DNA of 54,705 nt from Verrucomicrobiota bacterium (GTDB taxonomy: Bacteria; Verrucomicrobiota; Verrucomicrobiia; Verrucomicrobiales; DEV007). The translations under genes were made by a program, and so were the position numbers. Below, piece after piece: positions 1,700 through 52,085 of this stretch. How positions within the stretch are numbered: the stretch's first letter is position 1; every line of letters starts with the position of its first letter. The notes beneath the pieces were generated by a model. The model saw only the letters and a program-made list of their open reading frames with translations. It was not told the DNA's origin and did not search any database. The stretch is from NCBI GenBank assembly GCA_030625775.1, contig DAOUQC010000025.1:1-54705 (forward strand), read 5' to 3'.

Positions 1700-4600
1700 T
1701 TACTCGTCGCGCAAGGTCTGATGGCCGGGAGCACCTCCGGCAAGATATCCGCCGCTTTTTCCGGTCGCGTCCTTACTGAGCCAAAACGAGTAGAGTGATC
1801 CATTGCGCAAAGTGAAGCGCAACCTGACCGGTTTCCCGGCGAGCGCGGCAAGGTTTTTTGCACCGCGCCAGGTAATGTCTGCGCGAGTCTTATCCGCCGC
1901 TACCGGAACACAGTTTTCCGCCGTAAAGGGCGCAATCGGCTTTCCGTCCAGATCCAGAACCTCCGTGCGCAGCTCCCCTTTCGAGGTGTCGGCGTTGACA
2001 AAGAGGTGCGTTCCGGAAAAGAGTATCGGTCGCGTGACCAATTCCCCGTCGACGGCGTCGGCGTCCATGGAGGCGAAGCCATCACGCCTCAGTCGGGCGA
2101 TGCCCATCGCGGCGTTTGCATACATGCCGTTTTTCGTGATCTCGAATTCCTTGCCCTTGCGCTCAGGATCGCCAGCGAATCCGGTGTAGTAGAACCATAG
2201 TTCATCGTCCACCACCAGACAGAGTGCGGAATTGGAATGCAGGTAGGCGCGATCCCACGCGCCCGCATCGCGTTCACCGGGAATGAAAGGTGTGCGGTCA
2301 TTCGGACGTGACCAGTGAAAGCCGTCCCGACTGAAGCCTAGGTGGATCTCAGTCATCTTCGGCACGCCTTCCGCCGCACAGAAATTGTTCTCCGGTCCGG
2401 TCATGATGGTGAACGCACCAAGCATCAGCGACTCATAGGCCACAGCGTCGAAGTTGTAGAGCGCCGGGGTTTTGATCGGCCCCTCCCGCTCGGGAAAGGC
2501 GTAAAAATGGTTCTCTGCCGGTAGGTCCAGGTCATCCGCACGCAGCCATTTGACACGATTTTTCAATCCGGCACCCCCGAGAAAATCGGTTGATTCCGCG
2601 TATTCCCGGCTCCGATGATGCCACCCTGAACGGATGCTGTAGACCCATTTTTTGCGAAAGGAATTATAGAAAATCGTCGAGCGATCTCCACTGCTGCCCC
2701 AGTGGGTGCCGGAGTCCCAATGAACTCCATCCTTGGAGACATGCAGCATCCCTCCCTTGGGTCGCCCCCAAATGAGCATCTTGAAGCGATCTCCGCCGGT
2801 CGGCGCATCGGGATCCAGAATCACGGCGGCGGAATCGCGGGTGCCTTCAGCGGGAATGACACGGTTGGAGCCGGGTTCGATGTCGAGATTGGGCCGGGTC
2901 CAGTCGATGCCGTTTGTGCTGGTGGCATAAGCGGTGCCATCAAACCAGCCCGCACCATACCAAACTTTAAACAGCTGGTCCGCTCCGTCATACCACACAC
3001 CGCCACTGAAAGGAGCGGCCATGGGAACATGACCATTGGCTTCCCCGAGTTCAAGCGGAGTCTTGGGTTTCATTACCGGGTTGTGCTGATCCTTGCGCGC
3101 TTTGTGCCAAGTGCGAGCCAATGTGGTCCTTTCAATGAGAAAATCATCCACAAAAAGTTGTCGCCCTAAATCGACAGGAATGACGGTAGGCGGGATGACC
3201 AGATAGGGAACGGGTAGTGGATCGTCGCCAAATGCAGCCATGTCTGACCGGTCTCGCAGATCGGTCTCCAGTTGAATACCGTTGTAGAGCGTTTCAGTGG
3301 CACCCTCGTTGTCTCTGGGCCGGCGGTGGGATTCCTGGCTTAAGCCAAGAAGCACGCACCATTTGCCATAGGAGAGACTGGTTCCAGCCGTGACCTGTTT
3401 TTGGTAGATGTGCACCTGGTCTATCGCGTTTTTGCCGAAGAGTTGGAAGGATTGCGGAGCGATGACCCTGCGGAAGCCGTCACGTTCCAATGCCTGAGCT
3501 GCCGAGGCCGCACCTTTGACCGTCGGATTCGGCGTCAAAACTGTCAGCAGTCCGGGCGACAGGACAGTCGTCTCCGTGCCCTCGATCGGTCCGCGCAAAA
3601 AGCACGTGCCCTTGAGCGCCGGCGGGCACTCTGCCACCCGGTATTGACGATCGGTAAAGAGTCGAGCGTCGGGCCCGAATACATCAACCTTCGCTTTCGA
3701 CGAGGCAAACTCGATCGTCGCTGCTTTTCCCGTTAACAAGGACGCCTGCTTCCCGGCCAACACATCCGTTTCCTCGAGGGTGAAGCGGGTGTTCATCACG
3801 GAATGCTTCTCGGGACCGTTGGCATACTTCAAGTAGGTCGTCGCGATGATTGTGCCATCGGGGAGAAGTTCGAGGTCGGAGTAGCCGCAATCGGTGTTGC
3901 CCTGTCCCGGCCTGTCCGATTCTTTGCGCAGGGCGTTGTGAAAGAGCTTGAGTCGGTAGTCGCCGGGAGTGCCTTCGAGGATGTTTTTAAAACTTCCAAC
4001 CCAAGCAACATAGTGGCCGTAGGTTGAACTGCTTTTTGCCATGTCGCGAAAGGCGACGAGCAATCGTCCGTCGGGGGCGAGTTTGGCCACGTGGCGGTCA
4101 CCGGTGAGCGCGGCGGGCAGTTCATTCGGAACGCTCCAAGTCTTCGCATTGTCGTGGCTGACGGAATATAGGGATTGATATTTTCGACTGTTTTCGCGTA
4201 GCAGCATGAGGAGGGTGCGGCCGTCGGCGGAACGGATCACGCAGGGCTGCCCCCACCGGCTGGGGATGCGAAGAATGCGTTGGCTGGCGCTCCAAGTCAG
4301 CCCGCCGTCGAGCGACTCGCTCTGGATGACATAGTCGGGCAGGTCGCTCCACATTACGAGACGCTTGCCTTCGTCAAAGCTCAGGATAGTCTTTGGCGGA
4401 ACTTCGCCTTGGACTCCGTTTGGAACCATCGGCGTCCAGCTCTTGCCCTTGTCTTCGGAATACGATTGATGCATCGGATAGGGAGGTTTGCCTTTGCGAT
4501 TCCAATCGAGGCCGTCTGCGAAGCAGAACAGACGCGCAGTGCCATCGGGAGCGACGAGCCGATGCAGGGCGGGCGTGTTAGAGGTTTCCTTCCAGTTGTC

Positions 4601-6124
4601 GGGCACCTCCAATGGCTCACTCCAGCTGCGGCCGGCATCAGTGCTTTTGCTTATCGGACCAATCCAGCGTGCGTGTCCGAGACACCATGCAGTAAACATA
4701 GTTTTTCCATCGGGCAGCAGGACGGTGTCGCAGTGGCCCTGATAAACCGACTTCGTGCCGGCAGCGACAATGGAGTGGCAATGCTTGTCTTGGGAAAGAT
4801 CGATCAGCGGAATGCCGATCTCGCGATTCACTCCGGGGGTCGGCCCCTTGAACGACGGGACGGGAATCGGTTTTCTGGTAATGCCTTTCTGCGAAGCGAA
4901 TTCGCCGAGCTTCTCCAGTTTTCCAAACATAATCCGCTCCTTGCGGCTCGGGGAATGGTCGCCCTGGGTGACCGTCAGCCAGACCTCGCCGTCGTGCTCG
5001 CGGAAGGTGGGATACTGGAAGGACTTCGTCGTCTCGAAGCGATACTTGCGCTCCCAACGCACGCCGTCTCGAGAAACGTCGATATTGAACACACTGCGCC
5101 TCACCCCATGAATCCGGGTTGCTTCCTGCCAGCCGAGATAATAGAGGTCGCCAAACTTGTCGAAAGTCGGTTTCGAACTCGCGCCGTTGGGCACATGGGG
5201 CAATTCACGTCCGGCGCTCCAGGTGATTCCGTCTTTGCTGGTAGTAAAATGATAGTTGCCTCTGTCGTTACGGCAGATCGCCATCCAGGTTCCGTCGGGC
5301 AGCCGATTCACCGCTGACTCACTCAAGTTTGCGGATGGCGGGTCATTGTAGTGACCGAGAATCTCGAAGGTGGCGAAATCGTTGTGAACAAGGGCCAGCG
5401 CAATCTGTTTGCCCGGAAAATTGTTGAGTGCGATGTAGGTCTTTCCGTCGAAGATCTTGAAGGAATCGAAAAGATAGAGCCCAAAATCCTTCGCCGATTT
5501 ACTGAACCCCCGGGACGCGGCATCGGCGTGAAAATGCTGTGGCTGCATGTCGAAGACACCCTCTGCCGTTTTCAGCTTCACCTTGTGGATCGTCGGAGCA
5601 AAGGTCCGCGTTGCTATGTCAAAATCCCGATACCACATCTGCGACTGTCTTTTCCCAGGACGCTCACTCGCGAAGTAACTACGCAAGGTGTCCTCGTTGA
5701 TCCGATGGATACGCGGAACAAAGACCGCCCCCTCGGGCAGGGTTGTATTGTCGAAAGCCTGTTCGCCGCACGCAATGACCTGAATGTCCTCAACCTCAAG
5801 CGATTCAAGACTCACGATGGACAGCGTGCTGTAGATATTCGGACGCCCTGCGCTTTCCCCTGTCATTTCGTCATCCACTTCCGCAACGATGTAGGCGTGG
5901 CGATTGACGATGGTGAGCTCGGCGTCATGGGCACCTTTCACCCAAGACGCAGTAACTTTGGCGAGTCGGGCCATGACCTGATCGCCGGCTAACGCGGCGT
6001 CCCATTCAGCTGGGATTCCCTGCCATGTGCGATTGGCAATTGACTTATCCTCGGCCATAGCCGGGGTCGCGATTAAAAAAAGTAACAGCAAAAGTATTGA
6101 GTGAGAAGGAGAACAAGTTTTCAT
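1700..6124 (-). CDS. Secreted three-module sialidase-like / GH32-43-like protein
   Basis: A very long (1474 residue) exported protein with signal peptide 1-24 (hydrophobic LLLLLFLIA, A-M-A cleavage). Module 1 (about 60-430) is a divergent sialidase-like propeller with Asp-box-like turns at 296-302 and 351-357. Module 2 (about 440-790) is a clearer BNR/sialidase propeller: Asp boxes STDAGRSW (494-501), SEDKGKSW (556-563), SLDGGLTW (604-611) and a degenerate SHDNAKTW (656-663). A linker and small domain follow (about 800-970). Module 3 (about 980-1390) opens VDLGRQLFVDDFLIER and looks like the five-bladed GH32/43-type domain frequent in Planctomycetes and Verrucomicrobia, ending in a beta-sandwich. 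Family members are usually single-module, so this is a natural fusion or an assembly through gene joining; I see no frameshift. Substrate unknown. Transcribed divergently from the LacI-type regulator and followed by a transporter. Confidence 0.82.
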   Translation of the reverse strand: MKTCSPSHSILLLLLFLIATPAMAEDKSIANRTWQGIPAEWDAALAGDQVMARLAKVTASWVKGAHDAELTIVNRHAYIVAEVDDEMTGESAGRPNIYSTLSIVSLESLEVEDIQVIACGEQAFDNTTLPEGAVFVPRIHRINEDTLRSYFASERPGKRQSQMWYRDFDIATRTFAPTIHKVKLKTAEGVFDMQPQHFHADAASRGFSKSAKDFGLYLFDSFKIFDGKTYIALNNFPGKQIALALVHNDFATFEILGHYNDPPSANLSESAVNRLPDGTWMAICRNDRGNYHFTTSKDGITWSAGRELPHVPNGASSKPTFDKFGDLYYLGWQEATRIHGVRRSVFNIDVSRDGVRWERKYRFETTKSFQYPTFREHDGEVWLTVTQGDHSPSRKERIMFGKLEKLGEFASQKGITRKPIPVPSFKGPTPGVNREIGIPLIDLSQDKHCHSIVAAGTKSVYQGHCDTVLLPDGKTMFTAWCLGHARWIGPISKSTDAGRSWSEPLEVPDNWKETSNTPALHRLVAPDGTARLFCFADGLDWNRKGKPPYPMHQSYSEDKGKSWTPMVPNGVQGEVPPKTILSFDEGKRLVMWSDLPDYVIQSESLDGGLTWSASQRILRIPSRWGQPCVIRSADGRTLLMLLRENSRKYQSLYSVSHDNAKTWSVPNELPAALTGDRHVAKLAPDGRLLVAFRDMAKSSSTYGHYVAWVGSFKNILEGTPGDYRLKLFHNALRKESDRPGQGNTDCGYSDLELLPDGTIIATTYLKYANGPEKHSVMNTRFTLEETDVLAGKQASLLTGKAATIEFASSKAKVDVFGPDARLFTDRQYRVAECPPALKGTCFLRGPIEGTETTVLSPGLLTVLTPNPTVKGAASAAQALERDGFRRVIAPQSFQLFGKNAIDQVHIYQKQVTAGTSLSYGKWCVLLGLSQESHRRPRDNEGATETLYNGIQLETDLRDRSDMAAFGDDPLPVPYLVIPPTVIPVDLGRQLFVDDFLIERTTLARTWHKARKDQHNPVMKPKTPLELGEANGHVPMAAPFSGGVWYDGADQLFKVWYGAGWFDGTAYATSTNGIDWTRPNLDIEPGSNRVIPAEGTRDSAAVILDPDAPTGGDRFKMLIWGRPKGGMLHVSKDGVHWDSGTHWGSSGDRSTIFYNSFRKKWVYSIRSGWHHRSREYAESTDFLGGAGLKNRVKWLRADDLDLPAENHFYAFPEREGPIKTPALYNFDAVAYESLMLGAFTIMTGPENNFCAAEGVPKMTEIHLGFSRDGFHWSRPNDRTPFIPGERDAGAWDRAYLHSNSALCLVVDDELWFYYTGFAGDPERKGKEFEITKNGMYANAAMGIARLRRDGFASMDADAVDGELVTRPILFSGTHLFVNADTSKGELRTEVLDLDGKPIAPFTAENCVPVAADKTRADITWRGAKNLAALAGKPVRLRFTLRNGSLYSFWLSKDATGKSGGYLAGGAPGHQTLRDE

Positions 6125-30507: not shown

Positions 30508-32010
30508 ATGCCTGCTTATTATTTGGAAATCATCGTTGTTGTTCTGGGTTTGACTGTCCTGATGGTCGAGACCTTTGTTTCGTTGCGCGACAAGCGTTCG
30601 CTGGGTTGGCTTGCGATCCTTGGATTGCTGGTGGTGCTGGTTTTGAATTTCACGGTGGTTGAGACCGGAGGAGAAGGGGGCAACACGCCATTTTGGTCTT
30701 TCTATGTGATGGATATACCGGCACAGTGGTTCAAGGGGCTTGCTTTGCTGGCAACGATTTTTGTCATCCTGATGTCGGTGGATTTCAGCCGGGTATTGAG
30801 CAAAGGGATCTGTCCGGAGGTAGAAGACGATGGAGTTGATGATTGTGCTGAAAACCAGGTAGCACTCAGTGAGTTTTTCGCCCTGCCGATATTTATTTGT
30901 GCGGGAATGATGTGGATGGCTTCGGCGCATCACCTGGTGAGTATTTTTGTGGCATTGGAAACCGTGACGATTGGCTTTTATGTCATCGTCGCATTTATGC
31001 GGCGCAACGTAGGCTCACTGGAAGCAGGGGTGAAATACCTTATTCTCGGTGCGCTTTCCACCGGCTTTCTGGTTTACGGTTTTGCCTGGTTGTTCGGGGT
31101 GACCGGAGAAATGGAACTGGGAGCGATTGCCGACGCTTTGAATGCGCCGGACGTCCATCGCACGGGGGCTTTGTTTGCCTTTGCCTTGATCCTGATAGCC
31201 TTGTGTTTTAAAATCGGTGCCGTGCCGTTCCAGATCTGGATACCGGATGTTTATCAAGGTGCACCAATGCCGGTAACGGCTTTTCTGTCAGTGGGCTCGA
31301 AGGCTGCGGGCTTTGTCATTCTGTTACGCTTGCTGGAGCCTTTCATGGCTAGTGAGATGCTTAACGCCAACGTCACTTCGGTTCTGGTCATCATCGCTGC
31401 TGCCACGATTTTATTTGGAAATCTCGCGGCTCTACCACAGACAAACTTCAAGCGTTTGCTCGCTTATTCGAGTGTTTCCCATGCAGGTTTTTTATTGATG
31501 GCGGTGGCTAGTGCTCCGGCACATCCTGGGGTGGTCAGTCCGGTGGCTGCAGTATCGTATTATCTCGCTGCCTATCTGATGATGACGATGCTCGCATTTT
31601 TGATCATGAACCTGATCAGGGTGCAACGTGGTGATGAGAATCTGGAAGCCTATAAGGGGCTGGCTAAATCATCGCCATTTTTAGCTTTTGCAATGCTGGT
31701 GGCGATGGCGTCTTTGGCAGGGGTGCCGCTGACGGCGGGTTTTGTTGGCAAATTTTGGGTGTTTGTGCTCGCCTTGCAGGAAAAGCATTATTATCTGGTG
31801 GCTTTTGGCGTGATCGGCGCAGCTGCCGGGTTTTACTATTATCTGAAAATTGTGAAATCAATGTATTGGGACTCACCGGCAGATGCGGGCAGCTCTGCAG
31901 CCGTTCCTGTTGTGGTAGCCTGGCCGACCCGGATCGCCATTGTGCTACTGGTGGTGGGAGTCTTCTATTTCGGGGTGAATCCCGGAGCTTTGCTCAGTTT
32001 GTTCCTTTGA
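30508..32010 (+). CDS. nuoN: NADH-quinone oxidoreductase subunit N
   Basis: Third antiporter-like subunit (500 residues, about 14 helices). Typical runs: LVSIFVALETVTIGFYVIVAFMRR (key Glu), EAGVKYLILGALSTGFLVYGFAWLFG, KIGAVPFQIWIPDVYQGAPMPVTAFLSVGSKAAGF and the NFKRLLAYSSVSHAGFLLMAV helix. An acidic, Cys-containing insertion (about 100-120, CPEVEDDGVDDCAEN) between helices is unusual and could be a local disulfide loop. Last gene of the nuo operon; the next start is 123 bp on. Confidence 0.95.
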   Translation: MPAYYLEIIVVVLGLTVLMVETFVSLRDKRSLGWLAILGLLVVLVLNFTVVETGGEGGNTPFWSFYVMDIPAQWFKGLALLATIFVILMSVDFSRVLSKGICPEVEDDGVDDCAENQVALSEFFALPIFICAGMMWMASAHHLVSIFVALETVTIGFYVIVAFMRRNVGSLEAGVKYLILGALSTGFLVYGFAWLFGVTGEMELGAIADALNAPDVHRTGALFAFALILIALCFKIGAVPFQIWIPDVYQGAPMPVTAFLSVGSKAAGFVILLRLLEPFMASEMLNANVTSVLVIIAAATILFGNLAALPQTNFKRLLAYSSVSHAGFLLMAVASAPAHPGVVSPVAAVSYYLAAYLMMTMLAFLIMNLIRVQRGDENLEAYKGLAKSSPFLAFAMLVAMASLAGVPLTAGFVGKFWVFVLALQEKHYYLVAFGVIGAAAGFYYYLKIVKSMYWDSPADAGSSAAVPVVVAWPTRIAIVLLVVGVFYFGVNPGALLSLFL

Positions 32011-32133
32011 GGCAAAAACCTTCAGCCTCCTTTCTCATCCTTGCGAAAAAAACGGGAATCCTGTAATCTGGCATTGCCTGATGAAGTTTCATTTGGTACG
32101 CTTTCGTCTCTAAGCACTAAACAAAGAATTTGC

Positions 32134-32799
32134 ATGGCAGAAAAGAAAAAAAATGGCTGCATGAGTTGTCTGGTAACCCTGGTTTTACTTGGGGTGATTG
32201 CGGTGATGTTATTAGGAGCTGCGGGGGCAATGTTATATACAAATCGGGAAAAGCTGGGTATCCCTTCTTTGGAAGAGATGAAAAAACAGCTTAATGAAGC
32301 TGTCGAGAATGCCGAATCGGGCAAAGGCTTTTCGGGGAGTGCGGGAAAGTTGCAGCAAGTTGACGCTCAGAAATTAAATGAAGAATTAAAACGTGATGAT
32401 GTGCTGGTAATGGTGAGCTACTCTGCCGATTGGTTTGAGCCATGTCGGCAGATGAGACCTGATCTGGAGCGCTTGGCATGGAAATATGGAGATAAGGTGG
32501 TGATATTGGATATCCATGTTGATGAAGAGCCAGCCCTGGCAAAAAAAAATAAGGTCGAAATTATACCGAATTTCCGTTTGATGTATCAGGGTAAAGAGCT
32601 TGCCAAGGCTGAAGGCCATGTGCCATTTTCAGTTCTTGAAACCATGGTGATGCAGTATGAAAAAGTTTTGGAAGGCAGTGCCAGTAGGGCTCTTGTGATG
32701 CCCGATGGAGGGGTGATTGAACCAGGATCAGGAAAGTGGGTGCCGGAGGGGTTTTCTAAAACCATGCCAACCGGTAAGCCTAAACAGGAGTCTAAATAA
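32134..32799 (+). CDS. Membrane-anchored thioredoxin-fold protein with degenerate active site
   Basis: 221 residues: one membrane helix at about 12-36 after a short basic N-terminus with C9-M-S-C12, then an amphipathic helix (about 44-62) and a thioredoxin-like domain (about 75-180). The fold is shown by VMVSYSADWFEPCRQMRPDLERLAWKY (91-118), by VVILDIHVDEEPALAKKNKVEIIPNFRLMYQGKEL and by the cis-proline (P145). The usual WCGPC is W100-F-E-P-C104, so only the second active-site cysteine remains and ordinary dithiol oxidoreductase chemistry is not possible. The tail (180-221) is polar. Start at ATG 32134. The stop TAA shares a base with the next gene's ATG, so the two proteins are probably made together. 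Confidence 0.8.
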   Translation: MAEKKKNGCMSCLVTLVLLGVIAVMLLGAAGAMLYTNREKLGIPSLEEMKKQLNEAVENAESGKGFSGSAGKLQQVDAQKLNEELKRDDVLVMVSYSADWFEPCRQMRPDLERLAWKYGDKVVILDIHVDEEPALAKKNKVEIIPNFRLMYQGKELAKAEGHVPFSVLETMVMQYEKVLEGSASRALVMPDGGVIEPGSGKWVPEGFSKTMPTGKPKQESK

Positions 32800-34844
32800 T
32801 GAGTGACAAGGTGAAAGTCAGTGCGCCTTGGCGGCAAGGGAATGATCAAGACTCCTCGGTAGAGGGTGCCGGGGATAAAGCAAATTTGCTGCAGGTACCC
32901 TGTCCGGTTTGTGGACAGGCTTTGGCGCTTGGGCGCGAATATCTGGGAGGCCATTGTTTGTGTTCAGTTTGTGATGGGCTCATGCTGGTGAGTTTGAAGA
33001 AGGGGGTGGGGGGCGCCATGGGGGTAGTTGCCGAAAAAGTGGATAAGATGACGGGTGAAAAAATGACGGGCTCTGCTCCGGTTTCTTCTCCGGAAGCAGG
33101 GGGGGGATCGATGGATGAAGATTGGGAGAATACCAGGCCAGTAAAAATGTGGTCAGGTTCACCGGGGGAAAAACAAGCGGATGATGACTACGAGGACCTG
33201 GGGGCTACTATGCCGGTTCCGACTGTAGGGCAAGATCATGATGACGATGATGACTACGAGGATCTGGGGGTTACCATGCCGGTTCCTACTGTCGTGAAAG
33301 ACCATGGCGTAGGGTTGGGGGCTACTATGCCAGTGCCAACTGTAGCAAAGGATTCAGTGAAGGGGGGCACTGATGAGGACTGGGAACTGACCGCTCCTTC
33401 ACATTCCCAGCCAACGGCACCAAAAGCTGTATCAAATGAAGGGGGGGCTCCATGGAGTAAAATGGCCACTGGCAAACAAGGAATAAAACTTGCTCCTCCG
33501 AGTGGGCAGTCAGGTAAAATTTCAGCAAAAGCTCCATCACCTACATCGGGAGCGGTGCCAACTGCAACCACCCCCCCGACCAAAGCTCCTGCGCCGACTA
33601 CGGGTTCCGTACCTACTTTGGATTCAGGGCAGGTGGAGGCAAGGCTAGCGCATGAACAGGGAGGGCCGCCTACGTGGCAGCCTCCAGGAGTAAGTGCGCC
33701 GATAGAGAAAGAGGGGCAATTACAGAAGGGGAAGGCAAAGGCAGATAAAGCGGTGAAAGAGAAAAAGAGTAACCCTTTTGGAAACAAGCCTTCGGCAGCA
33801 GAGGTGAAAAAGAAGAAGGTCAAGCGCAAGGCGAAAAGCCATAAAGGCCTGGTATTTGTGATGTTGATTTTCTTGCTGTTGTGTACGGCGACCGCTGTGT
33901 TTATTGTGGCCCCAGGCCTCATCCCTTACGGACTGGAGGCAAGAGAGGTTGTTGATGGGAAGATAGATGAAGCCAAGGGCCAAATCGAGGGATTGCTGGC
34001 TGAGCGAGCGATGAATGCGGATGCATCAACTGACTCTCGGGATGGAACTGTGGTCGATTTGATGCCGAGTGCAGGTGGCGGAGGTGCAGGTGGCGGAGGT
34101 GCAGGCGAGGCTGGAGCCGCGGGTGAAGTTGTGGACAAGGCGCCTGTGCTTACTCCGGAGAGAGATAAAGCTTTGCGAAAATTGCTGGAACAGGAGGGGG
34201 AGAAGGTGATCCGGAGTTTTTACGGAGCTTCTACGGTGGATGAAAAATTGGCCTTTGTAGTCAATTCTGATGAGGCTCGCATCGATATGGAGAAATATTT
34301 TTCAAATAAGGATGCACTTGCCACGGTTCGCTCGGTCATGTTCAGGGGAGGGACTCGGGATTCTGGGACCGGGTATTATTACGGTGTATTTGATGTAATT
34401 GAGAATGAAAATGGAGACATCCATCGCTGGTGCGTGGTAGATCCCGGGACGGGGCTTTATCAGGTGGACTGGATTATATACCGTCAAATTGCTGCTTCAG
34501 AACTAGGAGCGTTTTTGGAAGTGCCTGCAGCAGAGGGGGTGACACAAAGTTTTCATATGTTGTTAAAGGTGGAGGGGAATGTTTCGGCAGACGACAGTCC
34601 GTGGTTTGATGATGTGGTAAAGGTGGGATTACAAGTGCCGATGATCAGTTCGAGGTGGTATTCGGTTTTGATGAAAAAACCTCTCGCGGAAAGTTCAGGG
34701 CTTACCACGGAGCTGGCAAATAACCGCATGACAATGGCAGTGGTCGAGATTGCATGGATTCCTGGAGATAAGAATCCTGACAAACGATTGCCGGCAATTG
34801 TCGGAATTAAGCGATGGGGGGCTTGGGCTCGCGATAATTTTTAA
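32799..34844 (+). CDS. Zinc-ribbon / low-complexity / single-TM protein with repeated T-x-P motifs
   Basis: I do not recognise this 681-residue protein as a known family. It has a zinc-ribbon-like N-terminus (CPVC at 35-38, HCLCSVC at 52-58) and a long acidic, Pro/Thr-rich linker (85-300). The linker contains related short motifs: DEDWENTRP (106-114), DDDYEDLGATMPVPTV (128-143), DDDYEDLGVTMPVPTV (150-165), GLGATMPVPTV (172-182) and DEDWELTAP (192-200). A Lys-rich stretch (305-348) leads to one membrane helix (350-371). After it come a Gly-rich spacer (425-440) and a C-terminal domain (450-681) with a pattern like a compact beta-rich fold. The Lys-rich side suggests the N-terminal 350 residues are cytoplasmic. 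Coupled by a 1-base overlap to the thioredoxin-like gene before it. Confidence 0.72.
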   Translation: MSDKVKVSAPWRQGNDQDSSVEGAGDKANLLQVPCPVCGQALALGREYLGGHCLCSVCDGLMLVSLKKGVGGAMGVVAEKVDKMTGEKMTGSAPVSSPEAGGGSMDEDWENTRPVKMWSGSPGEKQADDDYEDLGATMPVPTVGQDHDDDDDYEDLGVTMPVPTVVKDHGVGLGATMPVPTVAKDSVKGGTDEDWELTAPSHSQPTAPKAVSNEGGAPWSKMATGKQGIKLAPPSGQSGKISAKAPSPTSGAVPTATTPPTKAPAPTTGSVPTLDSGQVEARLAHEQGGPPTWQPPGVSAPIEKEGQLQKGKAKADKAVKEKKSNPFGNKPSAAEVKKKKVKRKAKSHKGLVFVMLIFLLLCTATAVFIVAPGLIPYGLEAREVVDGKIDEAKGQIEGLLAERAMNADASTDSRDGTVVDLMPSAGGGGAGGGGAGEAGAAGEVVDKAPVLTPERDKALRKLLEQEGEKVIRSFYGASTVDEKLAFVVNSDEARIDMEKYFSNKDALATVRSVMFRGGTRDSGTGYYYGVFDVIENENGDIHRWCVVDPGTGLYQVDWIIYRQIAASELGAFLEVPAAEGVTQSFHMLLKVEGNVSADDSPWFDDVVKVGLQVPMISSRWYSVLMKKPLAESSGLTTELANNRMTMAVVEIAWIPGDKNPDKRLPAIVGIKRWGAWARDNF

Positions 34845-34871
34845 CCGAGCAGCTATCCCGGTCTTCTTCTT

Positions 34872-35504
34872 TTGGCTTTGAAGCGTCTTTTCGATCTTTT
34901 ATTTTCTATTTTTGGATTGGTCGTCATCAGTCCTTTGCTGGCTGTTGTAGCCGTGCTTATTAAATTGATCGATGGAGGGCCGGTTATTTTTCTGCAAGTC
35001 AGGGTGGGTTTTGAGGGCAAGTATTTTCAAGTTCTTAAATTTAGAACCATGGACAGAGGGAAGGGGCCGGGGGAGCCCCAGTTCACTGTCGAGGGAGATC
35101 CCCGTATAACGTCGCTCGGCCGAATTTTGAGAAGAACGAAGATCGATGAGCTCCCACAGTTATGGAACGTGGTCAGAGGGGACATGACCTTTGTTGGTCC
35201 TCGTCCGGAGGTTCCCAGGTATGTTGAGTTATACAATGAGGAGCAAAAAGCCGTGCTGCAGCATGTTCCCGGGATCACCGGGTTGGCTACTCTGGAGTTT
35301 CGCAATGAGGAGAGATGGTTGGCTGAAGTGGAGAATCCGGAAGAAGTGTATATCAATGAAGTGATCCCGCGGAAGATCGAGTTGAATTTAAAATATGCCA
35401 AGAGCGCTAACTTGTGGCAGGATTTCAAATTAATTGTGCGCACGGTGATCGCTTTGTTTGACGTAAGCTCTGACCCGATAAAAAGTAGTGATCATTCGGG
35501 ATAG
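34872..35504 (+). CDS. Undecaprenyl-phosphate sugar-1-phosphate transferase
   Basis: A 210-residue monotopic phosphoglycosyl transferase (bacterial sugar transferase, WcaJ/PglC type), which starts glycan assembly by moving a sugar phosphate from a nucleotide sugar to undecaprenyl phosphate. Visible are the N-terminal re-entrant hydrophobic segment (LFSIFGLVVISPLLAVVAVLIK), the FLQVRVGFEGKYFQVLKFRTM block, DELPQLWNVVRGDMTFVGPRPEVPRYVELY (the catalytic Asp-Glu and the VGPRPE signature) and HVPGITGLA. No ATG fits: the frame opens at TTG 34872 (or TTG 34878), after an in-frame stop belonging to the preceding gene 28 bp upstream. The short form lacks the extra membrane helices of WbaP. There is no glycan cluster nearby. 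Confidence 0.88.
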   Translation: MALKRLFDLLFSIFGLVVISPLLAVVAVLIKLIDGGPVIFLQVRVGFEGKYFQVLKFRTMDRGKGPGEPQFTVEGDPRITSLGRILRRTKIDELPQLWNVVRGDMTFVGPRPEVPRYVELYNEEQKAVLQHVPGITGLATLEFRNEERWLAEVENPEEVYINEVIPRKIELNLKYAKSANLWQDFKLIVRTVIALFDVSSDPIKSSDHSG

Positions 35505-35926
35505 CCTAAGGCTTGAGCAGACGCTGTTGCCCGTCATTATGTTGACTTGGACTCGGGCATCGATGGTTGCAGGGGGGGCGGGAAGCTGGACAAAGAAACC
35601 GAGCCTTGAAAAGCCAAGGGAAAAGTTGGTGAAGATACTGAAAGCAGGTCATGTTTCATTGCTTGGCAGCGGTTCAAAGCATTCGGTTGTTTTTTCTGCT
35701 CCGCAGCCGTTTTCAAAAAAAATGAGCTAAATGAAGATTTCCGGGAATAGTTTTTGACAGAAAATTCGAATCGGCTAAATTGCGCGGCGTTTTTGACCTT
35801 CAGAGAGACTGGTATGCCTTGCGAATTCCGCTTCACAGCAGGGTTCAGGGTGTTTTAGCCTCTTTTAAGGTCAGGGCGGGATTTTTAGAAAGTGGTCGTT
35901 TTGGCGATTATTAGGCAGAAATCCAG
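35505..35926. other. Leader region before tRNA-Thr and tuf
   Basis: 422 bp without a supported gene. An 80-codon frame (35488-35730) overlaps the end of the sugar transferase and has no recognisable content. The right half holds the promoter listed separately, then about 140 bp of untranslated leader. Confidence 0.6.
35754..35789 (+). promoter_or_regulatory. Sigma-70-type promoter of the tRNA-tuf-rpo cluster
   Basis: A perfect -35 box TTGACA (35754-35759), a 16-bp spacer and -10 box TAAATT (35776-35781), followed at once by the G+C-rich discriminator GCGCGGCG (35782-35789). A GC-rich discriminator is typical of stringently controlled tRNA and rRNA promoters. Transcription would start about 140 bp before tRNA-Thr and run into tuf. 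Confidence 0.6.
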
Positions 35927-36001
<75 letters not shown>

Positions 36002-51398: not shown

Positions 51399-51421
51399 GG
51401 GAAATTTAATTCAAATTTGAA

Positions 51422-51448
51422 ACGGGCGCCCCGGGGTGCTCGTTTTTT
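51422..51448 (+). terminator. Rho-independent terminator after tsf
   Basis: 9-bp stem ACGGGCGCC / GGTGCTCGT (two G-U pairs) with loop CCGG, followed by a run of T (51443-51448). This is the clearest intrinsic terminator in the window and marks the end of the ribosomal/polymerase cluster. Confidence 0.85.
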
Positions 51449-51533
51449 GTTGTCGGGTTTGCGCTTTACGGAAGTCAGTATTTTCGTCATGCTAAAATCA
51501 CACAATAAATCCGCATACAATAACATAAATTCC

Positions 51534-52085
51534 ATGACTGAAGCTCCACCCCAACTGCCTGGCGGGCAAATTGTGAGACCACAAAGAACATCCAAGGCAG
51601 CTATATGGAGTTTGATCCTGGGGATCTCGAGTAATCTGTGCCTGTGGATTTTAGGTTCGATTCCAGCAATCATTCTGGGAATTATTGCGTTCAAAAACAT
51701 TAATCGTGAGCCATCGAAAATCGGGGGGAAAGGGCTGGCAATAGCTGGAATCATCACAGCTTGCATTGGATTGTTCGTGGGAGCAATGGTCGTCAGTATA
51801 TTTTCTATCGGCGGGACAGCTTACCAGCGGGGGGCAGGGCGGGCTAAGTGCATCTTGCAACAGACTGTCGTTCAAAAAGCGGTGCTTGCTCACGCAGAGC
51901 TAAATGAGCTTAAATCGGGTGATGAGCTGCCTATCGCCTTACTGGTAGATGAAGAAGGCTACTTAACCGTTGTGCCCACTTGCCCCGATGGAGGTAGCTA
52001 CAAGTTTCTTGGCCGGGTGCCGGACTCAACGGTAACTTATGTCAAGTGTGATCAAGAGGGACATGTGCTGGACCTCAACCGGTAG
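51534..52085 (+). CDS. DUF4190-type membrane protein with pseudopilin-like C-terminus
   Basis: 183 residues. A proline-rich cytoplasmic start (1-20), two membrane helices typical of DUF4190 (WSLILGISSNLCLWILGSIPAIILGIIAF at 25-53 and GLAIAGIITACIGLFVGAMVVSIFSIGG at 67-94), then a soluble tail. The tail ends with TCPDGGSYKF (149-158) and KCDQEGH (171-177), the disulfide-bounded C-P-x-GG-x-Y ... C-x(3)-GH pattern of Verrucomicrobia pseudopilins, yet no prepilin cleavage site is present. Start at ATG 51534, which follows an AT-rich promoter-like region; frame codons further upstream overlap the tsf terminator. Function unknown; a membrane-fixed pilin-head domain is inferred. Confidence 0.78.
   Translation: MTEAPPQLPGGQIVRPQRTSKAAIWSLILGISSNLCLWILGSIPAIILGIIAFKNINREPSKIGGKGLAIAGIITACIGLFVGAMVVSIFSIGGTAYQRGAGRAKCILQQTVVQKAVLAHAELNELKSGDELPIALLVDEEGYLTVVPTCPDGGSYKFLGRVPDSTVTYVKCDQEGHVLDLNR

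Follow-up and report, generated by a model that had tools for sequence, protein, structure and literature searches.

Between the end of the nuo operon, where nuoN stops at 32010, and a tRNA-Thr/tuf locus, a 54,705-nt stretch of DNA from a Verrucomicrobiota bacterium (assembly GCA_030625775.1, contig DAOUQC010000025.1; here called the window) carries three genes on the forward strand, which raise the question of whether they make up one system, a smaller unit, or none. An open reading frame (ORF) listing placed all three where an initial annotation had put them. Gene 1 (32134–32799; 221 a.a.) encodes a membrane-tethered protein with a thioredoxin fold, as read from its ORF, Pfam and NCBIfam matches and alignment to a PDB structure. 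Gene 2 (32799–34844; 681 a.a.) encodes a protein in which a zinc ribbon, a linker, a transmembrane (TM) segment, and NTF2-like and OB-like domains follow one another, as judged from the ORF, hydropathy, alignment and AlphaFold2 models. The stop of gene 1 and the start of gene 2 share one base (TAATG), and closely behind lies gene 3 (34878–35504, TTG start), identified through Pfam, NCBIfam and a match to structure 8e37 as a small monotopic phosphoglycosyl transferase (PGT), a neighbor rather than a core part. While the initial annotation took the three as one membrane system for surface glycan initiation, we tentatively favor, at slightly less than even confidence, a narrower reading: genes 1 and 2 encode a genus-specific, translationally coupled inner-membrane pair, with a dead thioredoxin as its structural or binding subunit, and the PGT is a separate orphan.

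Comparisons within the genus drew on three genomes of uncultured Verrucomicrobia, namely G000 (the window's own), G001 (73% complete) and G002 (95% complete). Against G002, nonsynonymous change (pN) was 0.10, 0.19 and 0.20 for genes 1, 2 and 3, respectively, and synonymous change (pS) was 0.68, 0.68 and 0.74; this indicates purifying selection on all three, which are therefore real genes.

The degenerate thioredoxin of gene 1

Gene 1 begins with a hydrophobic segment (residues 6–37, 32149–32244) identified by hydropathy, its N-terminus probably inside given weak flanking charges of +2 before and 0 after. The thioredoxin domain that follows (residues 75–171, 32356–32646) matches PF00085 far above the cut-off (62.9 against 23.5 bits, E = 3.2e-17). 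Gene 1 resembles membrane-tethered members of the thioredoxin family in sequence fold, in the motif Trp and Pro, and in an intact cis-Pro (Pro145, which aligns with Ile-Pro of 1t00 and is invariant in the gene 1 alignment, A1). It departs from them at the active site (WFEPC, residues 100–104, 32431–32445), where the first, nucleophilic cysteine of CXXC is replaced by Phe and the motif glycine by Glu, and where Ser95 aligns to the Asp that precedes the motif in 1t00. In redox-active thioredoxins, this buried Asp and the cis-Pro loop are both functional positions. The initial annotation was right that the site is degenerate, although it is not the resolving chemistry that is missing; the absent cysteine is the nucleophilic one, and the second, resolving cysteine is kept in the window and lost in the G002 ortholog (WFEPS), and is thus unconserved. 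Beyond the motif, gene 1 has cysteines only at positions 9 and 12, near the N-terminus, and the thioredoxin domain of the G002 ortholog is free of cysteine.

A paralog in G002 with an intact WCGPC motif, which also retains the preceding Asp, aligns with gene 1 across the TM segment, domain and tail at 36–38% identity. This paralog is located at L069:7278–8018, near a recQ-like ORF. Of 74 genomes from the bacterial family, 3 matched the first 75 residues of gene 1, at four places in total, and all 3 belong to this genus. One of the four is the cut-off end of contig C470 in G001, whose neighbors, read by eye, are those of the G002 WCGPC paralog, and which is likely the cut-off start of that same paralog; in G000, the search with gene 1 returned no second long match.

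With 82.4% identity to its G002 ortholog (pN 0.100, pS 0.682), gene 1 changes about as slowly as nuoN (83.7%, pN 0.101) and dgt (83.9%, pN 0.101), and it is therefore not a merely decayed protein. Judged from its sequence, gene 1 is a membrane-tethered thioredoxin with catalysis apparently lost and the fold kept under purifying selection, the change presumably having run from active to dead. It would offer a case of a thioredoxin seemingly duplicated, stripped of catalysis within one genus, and yet retained, clearly under selection, next to a membrane protein not described before.

The zinc-ribbon membrane protein of gene 2

The N-terminal part of gene 2 carries a zinc ribbon (Cys 35, 38, 55 and 58; 32901–32972) whose four cysteines, and likewise Cys53, are kept in G002, the segment of residues 34–66 being identical at 31 of 33 positions. 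Alignment, motif count and a DNA repeat mark out an acidic T-x-P repeat region behind it (residues 106–205, 33114–33413), which contains units such as DYEDLGATMPVPTV and a 61-nt DNA repeat in three copies (100, 87 and 64%). T-x-P occurs eight times in residues 1–345 and nowhere after the TM segment, compared to a shuffled mean of 2.2 with 3 of 5000 shuffles reaching eight, a statistic in which several motifs are copies within one repeat and hence not independent. Further along, a linker peptide (residues 245–283, 33531–33647) is identical to G002 at 35 of 39 positions (pS 0.65, pN 0.07) and is also present in G001, whereas the stretches flanking it are identical at 19 of 35 and 18 of 42 positions. 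Searched against 34 genomes, it was found at E ≤ 4.6e-17 in the three genus genomes, the next best match being at E = 0.035. The linker is predicted to be disordered, and its conserved peptides suggest putative cytoplasmic docking sites.

Hydropathy places a single TM segment at residues 345–379 (33831–33935). Given flanking charges of +9 before and −3 after, the charge rule puts the N-terminus inside, so that the zinc ribbon and linker would lie in the cytoplasm and the folded domains outside. The charges, conserved cysteines and models all fit the initial description of a cytoplasmic zinc ribbon, acidic T-x-P repeats, one membrane helix and an outer domain. An assignment of gene 2 as a PASTA kinase was rejected; the NCBIfam match was weak (E = 0.0067, 15.5 bits where the cut-off is 450) and covered charged sequence of low complexity plus the TM segment. 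Three FHA domains were found in G000, one of them in an ORF adjoining what reads by eye as a kinase. At L103:3–3187 in the same genome, kinase-like, FHA plus cyclase-like, and zinc-ribbon/bactofilin-like ORFs stand side by side, all named by eye except for the FHA.

The outer region was modeled with AlphaFold2 from 11 sequences, with a predicted local distance difference test (pLDDT) of 86.5 and a predicted template modeling score (pTM) of 0.78. VIA-align superposed model residues 13–119 on NTF2-like domains, ranking PBP5 of Enterococcus faecium first (Z 10.3, root-mean-square deviation (rmsd) 2.5, 100 aligned), and an NTF2-like fold is well supported by the model for the first outer half (residues 460–566, 34176–34496). 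The second half (residues 568–681, 34500–34841), modeled alone at pLDDT 86.1, aligned best to BrxL (Z 8.2, borderline by the alignment tool's own note; rmsd 3.9, 99 residues) and then mostly to OB proteins, including SSB, PriB and RPA. Foldseek agreed in kind (best E = 0.0067), and an OB-like fold is likely for this half. Both predicted domains are of the binding type, and their folds do not reveal a ligand. No viral model matched the whole outer region in Foldseek at E ≤ 0.001, and a PDB sequence search with the outer domain reached only E = 0.22. An NTF2-like domain behind a single membrane helix is also how PBP5 and PBP2a are built, in the N-terminal domain that we take to be MecA_N. Gene 2 differs from penicillin-binding proteins in having no transpeptidase family match (no Pfam model at E ≤ 1), an OB-like domain behind the NTF2-like one, and a zinc ribbon and linker in front. 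The topology together with the two fold assignments makes gene 2 testable.

Gene 2 drew no Pfam match at E ≤ 1, and its one NCBIfam match fell far short of the model's cut-off. At E ≤ 0.001, the whole protein was matched in 18 of 57 genomes, for the most part through the outer domain where the genome lay outside the genus. A profile of that domain picked up 7 genomes (counting the window's own) among 286 of the class at E ≤ 1e-6, with the best candidates (up to 10) per genome scored. More distant members occur in other families of the order, with zinc ribbons read by eye (L074–L078 covered in part); the family alignment (A2) holds 13 sequences, L076 having been dropped for frame errors and the distant L078–L083 left out. 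Each genus genome has two or three members. Gene 2 has the zinc ribbon, TM segment and conserved outer domain that define the group, and it belongs to an undescribed Verrucomicrobia family of zinc-ribbon/NTF2-like/OB-like membrane proteins, a grouping of our own. Literature searches, most subscription journals being outside their coverage, found nothing on a verrucomicrobial zinc ribbon with an NTF2-like domain or with a thioredoxin in a transmembrane hypothetical protein, on an NTF2-like domain plus an OB-fold in a periplasmic domain, or on a verrucomicrobial PGT.

The closest paralogs, one per genus genome, share with gene 2 the zinc ribbon, a long acidic linker and the same outer domain (~36–41% identity), and differ in adjoining the dGTPase gene dgt, in other linker repeats, and in having no neighboring thioredoxin. 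These acidic zinc-ribbon proteins lie directly before dgt at L066:8592–11120, L067:6443–8998 and L068:2–1429, as does a relative in G017 (L072:6810–9857), and the pairing of the family with dgt is steady. A third, distant relative in G000 (L184:7686–9785, contig C151) is cut off at the N-terminal end, where it shows a long Pro-Glu repeat.

Linkage of the three genes and competing explanations

The stop/start overlap of genes 1 and 2 is present in both genomes that show both genes, extending to 4 bases (ATGA) in G002, and in these two of the three genus genomes all three genes stand in identical order with small gaps. In G001, the contig starts within gene 2, which adjoins tuf, and the position of gene 1 falls outside the contig. 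No PGT was found there at the syntenic spot, a short spacer alone separating the end of gene 2 from the tRNA-Thr promoter, and no PF02397 protein was found elsewhere in this genome, whose assembly is 73% complete, so that genome-wide absence is not proven. The run of N in the G001 contig lies beyond the tRNA promoter and separates two pieces that stand almost side by side in the window; it therefore cannot hide a PGT located where the window has one. By pairwise identity, gene 2, dgt and tuf place G001 farther than G002 from G000, and nusG and rplA do not, a mixed ranking that does not decide between gain and loss of the PGT.

Outside the window, 22 neighborhoods of the gene 2 family were compared, bounded by contig ends: 2 orthologous loci (G002 and G001), the 3 paralogs linked to dgt, 1 distant relative in G000, and 16 loci beyond the genus. 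Those beyond it were taken from 14 of the 15 matching genomes (G007, with its match on a 3 kb contig, was left out) and from 2 (L185, L186) of a further 6 genomes matched by the outer-domain profile. A thioredoxin or PGT like those of the window was present only at the G002 ortholog (L064) and was not found in any of the 16 outside the genus, while dgt was present at four loci (L066, L067, L068 and L072). Likewise, with both flanks of every locus tested for homology, 28 nuoN loci and 27 tuf loci from beyond the genus had none of the three genes within 1.5 kb, to the extent that their contigs cover this distance. The arrangement is therefore known from this genus only. As an obligate set, the three-gene unit is rejected, given the G001 locus without a PGT, and with that locus and the single partnered neighborhood among 22 the system as first proposed is not supported. 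The initial annotation had said that finding its two membrane proteins apart in relatives, or the transferase away from them in most genomes, would refute it; the two are together in both testable orthologous loci (G000 and G002), and for the wider gene 2 family the refuting outcome is what the neighborhoods show.

Gene 3 itself is of an ordinary enzyme type, given homologs of some kind in 55 of 57 relatives. Its ORF was listed as 34872–35504, and the second TTG (34878) is the more likely start because G002 shares that in-frame TTG. It matches PF02397 (Bac_transf) at E = 5.2e-59, and its nearest solved structure is 8e37 (E = 1.4e-30), presumably PglC. The Asp-Glu pair is the catalytic dyad of small monotopic PGTs, and IDELPQL of gene 3 aligns to LDELPQL of 8e37. 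Lys-Arg and Ser-Pro motifs mark the reentrant helix of these enzymes (PMC6133551); gene 3 has LKRLFD and ISPLL, with Ala-Pro in G002 where the window has Ser-Pro. In domain and in all three elements, gene 3 is like PglC and other small monotopic PGTs; it differs in that the 8e37 match ends at about residue 153 and that no glycan cluster was seen adjoining it. The enzyme looks intact and is probably active. G000 has a second PF02397 protein, whose ORF runs off the end of a 5.5 kb contig. At this locus, the PGT is an orphan neighbor whose tie to the pair is one of location only.

The coupled pair is favored by the gene overlap in both genomes, by purifying selection on a non-catalytic thioredoxin fold, and by the conserved cytoplasmic motifs of gene 2. 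Gene 1 would most likely act on the outer domains of gene 2 as a subunit that gives structure or binds clients, and gene 2's zinc ribbon and conserved cytoplasmic peptides could recruit a cytoplasmic partner, and the pair would then serve as an envelope adaptor or sensor that passes on an envelope signal or holds that partner. We infer both the contact of the two proteins and the adaptor role. The membrane pair of the initial annotation fits the structure prediction, the overlap, and the charges flanking the membrane segments, a strong signal in gene 2 and a weak one in gene 1; the control over glycan initiation proposed there is unsupported. Several observations weigh against the coupled pair, or against the folds assigned within it: it is visible in only two genomes, the gene 2 paralogs and relatives examined have no such adjoining thioredoxin, and G002 likewise retains the surrounding nuoN and tuf synteny, so that linkage alone proves little; the OB half is borderline, and Foldseek returned no PDB match at E ≤ 0.001 for either gene 2 model, with low TM-scores. 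A rival reading, which we regard as unlikely, is chance: a rearrangement in the ancestor of the genus would have brought three unrelated genes together in the interval from the nuo operon to tRNA-Thr/tuf. The nuoN and tuf loci lacking these genes elsewhere speak for it, as do the other neighbors of gene 2 paralogs, with dgt at 4 of 22 loci. Against it, the overlap has been retained in two species with near-saturated synonymous change, and proteins 1 and 2 are predicted to face the same compartment.

That gene 1 is a periplasmic holdase like the chaperedoxin CnoX, docked at the membrane by gene 2 and helping envelope proteins that are nascent or damaged, is an analogy we regard as quite unlikely. 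Escherichia coli CnoX (YbbN) also has a thioredoxin domain without the first motif cysteine (SXXC) and shows no oxidoreductase activity, but it is cytoplasmic, has a TPR domain, and in its SXXC form keeps a second cysteine for mixed disulfides (PMC6282202). In gene 1 there is a membrane helix, Pfam and NCBIfam scans matched no TPR family at E ≤ 1, and the only cysteines outside the motif are the N-terminal two; the thioredoxin domain of its G002 ortholog has none. Still less credible is a single machine in which the pair senses or gates envelope glycan initiation by regulating the PGT at the membrane. The shared order in G000 and G002 agrees with it, and as the sole PF02397 protein found in G002, this PGT would be one whose control mattered. 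In Myxococcus, a PGT is reported to be regulated directly by its partner (EpsW/EpsZ, PMC12802240), so control of this kind could in principle exist; what was observed here does not favor it. Besides G001, where gene 2 stands without any PGT found, a PGT like this one is missing from all 20 neighborhoods of gene 2 paralogs and relatives beyond the orthologous L064 and L065, and no glycan-synthesis gene turned up among the 20 other window ORFs scanned by Pfam (part of the window's ORFs), as the initial annotation had noted. The fullest version is highly improbable: a one-genus envelope module in which the dead thioredoxin reads the envelope state, the NTF2-like and OB-like domains relay it to docking on the T-x-P motifs (possibly phosphorylated and FHA-read) and zinc ribbon, and this gates the main glycan-initiating PGT, which G001 would have lost or never gained. 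Regulation of the orphan PGT by the pair, if real, would add a new point of control over surface glycans.

Flanks of the locus and other observations

The intergenic stretch between nuoN and gene 1 (32011–32133, forward strand) is partly conserved with G002 by alignment, in the blocks TTTCTCATCC.TGCGAAAAAA and TGTAATC, and these hint at a possible promoter of gene 1's own; a promoter scan reported no consensus promoter in it. At the right edge of the three genes, a promoter-like TTGACA-16-TAAATT (35754–35781, forward strand), which G002 shares and G001 carries with one change, precedes tRNA-Thr(GGT) (35927–36001, forward strand, by tRNA detection), the right-hand boundary, and tuf. The three proteins had no PADLOC defense match at E ≤ 0.01. 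Elsewhere in the window, an ORF with a DUF4190 domain follows tsf directly (51417–52085), and a 1474-residue protein with a BNR repeat-like domain is encoded on the minus strand at 1700–6124.

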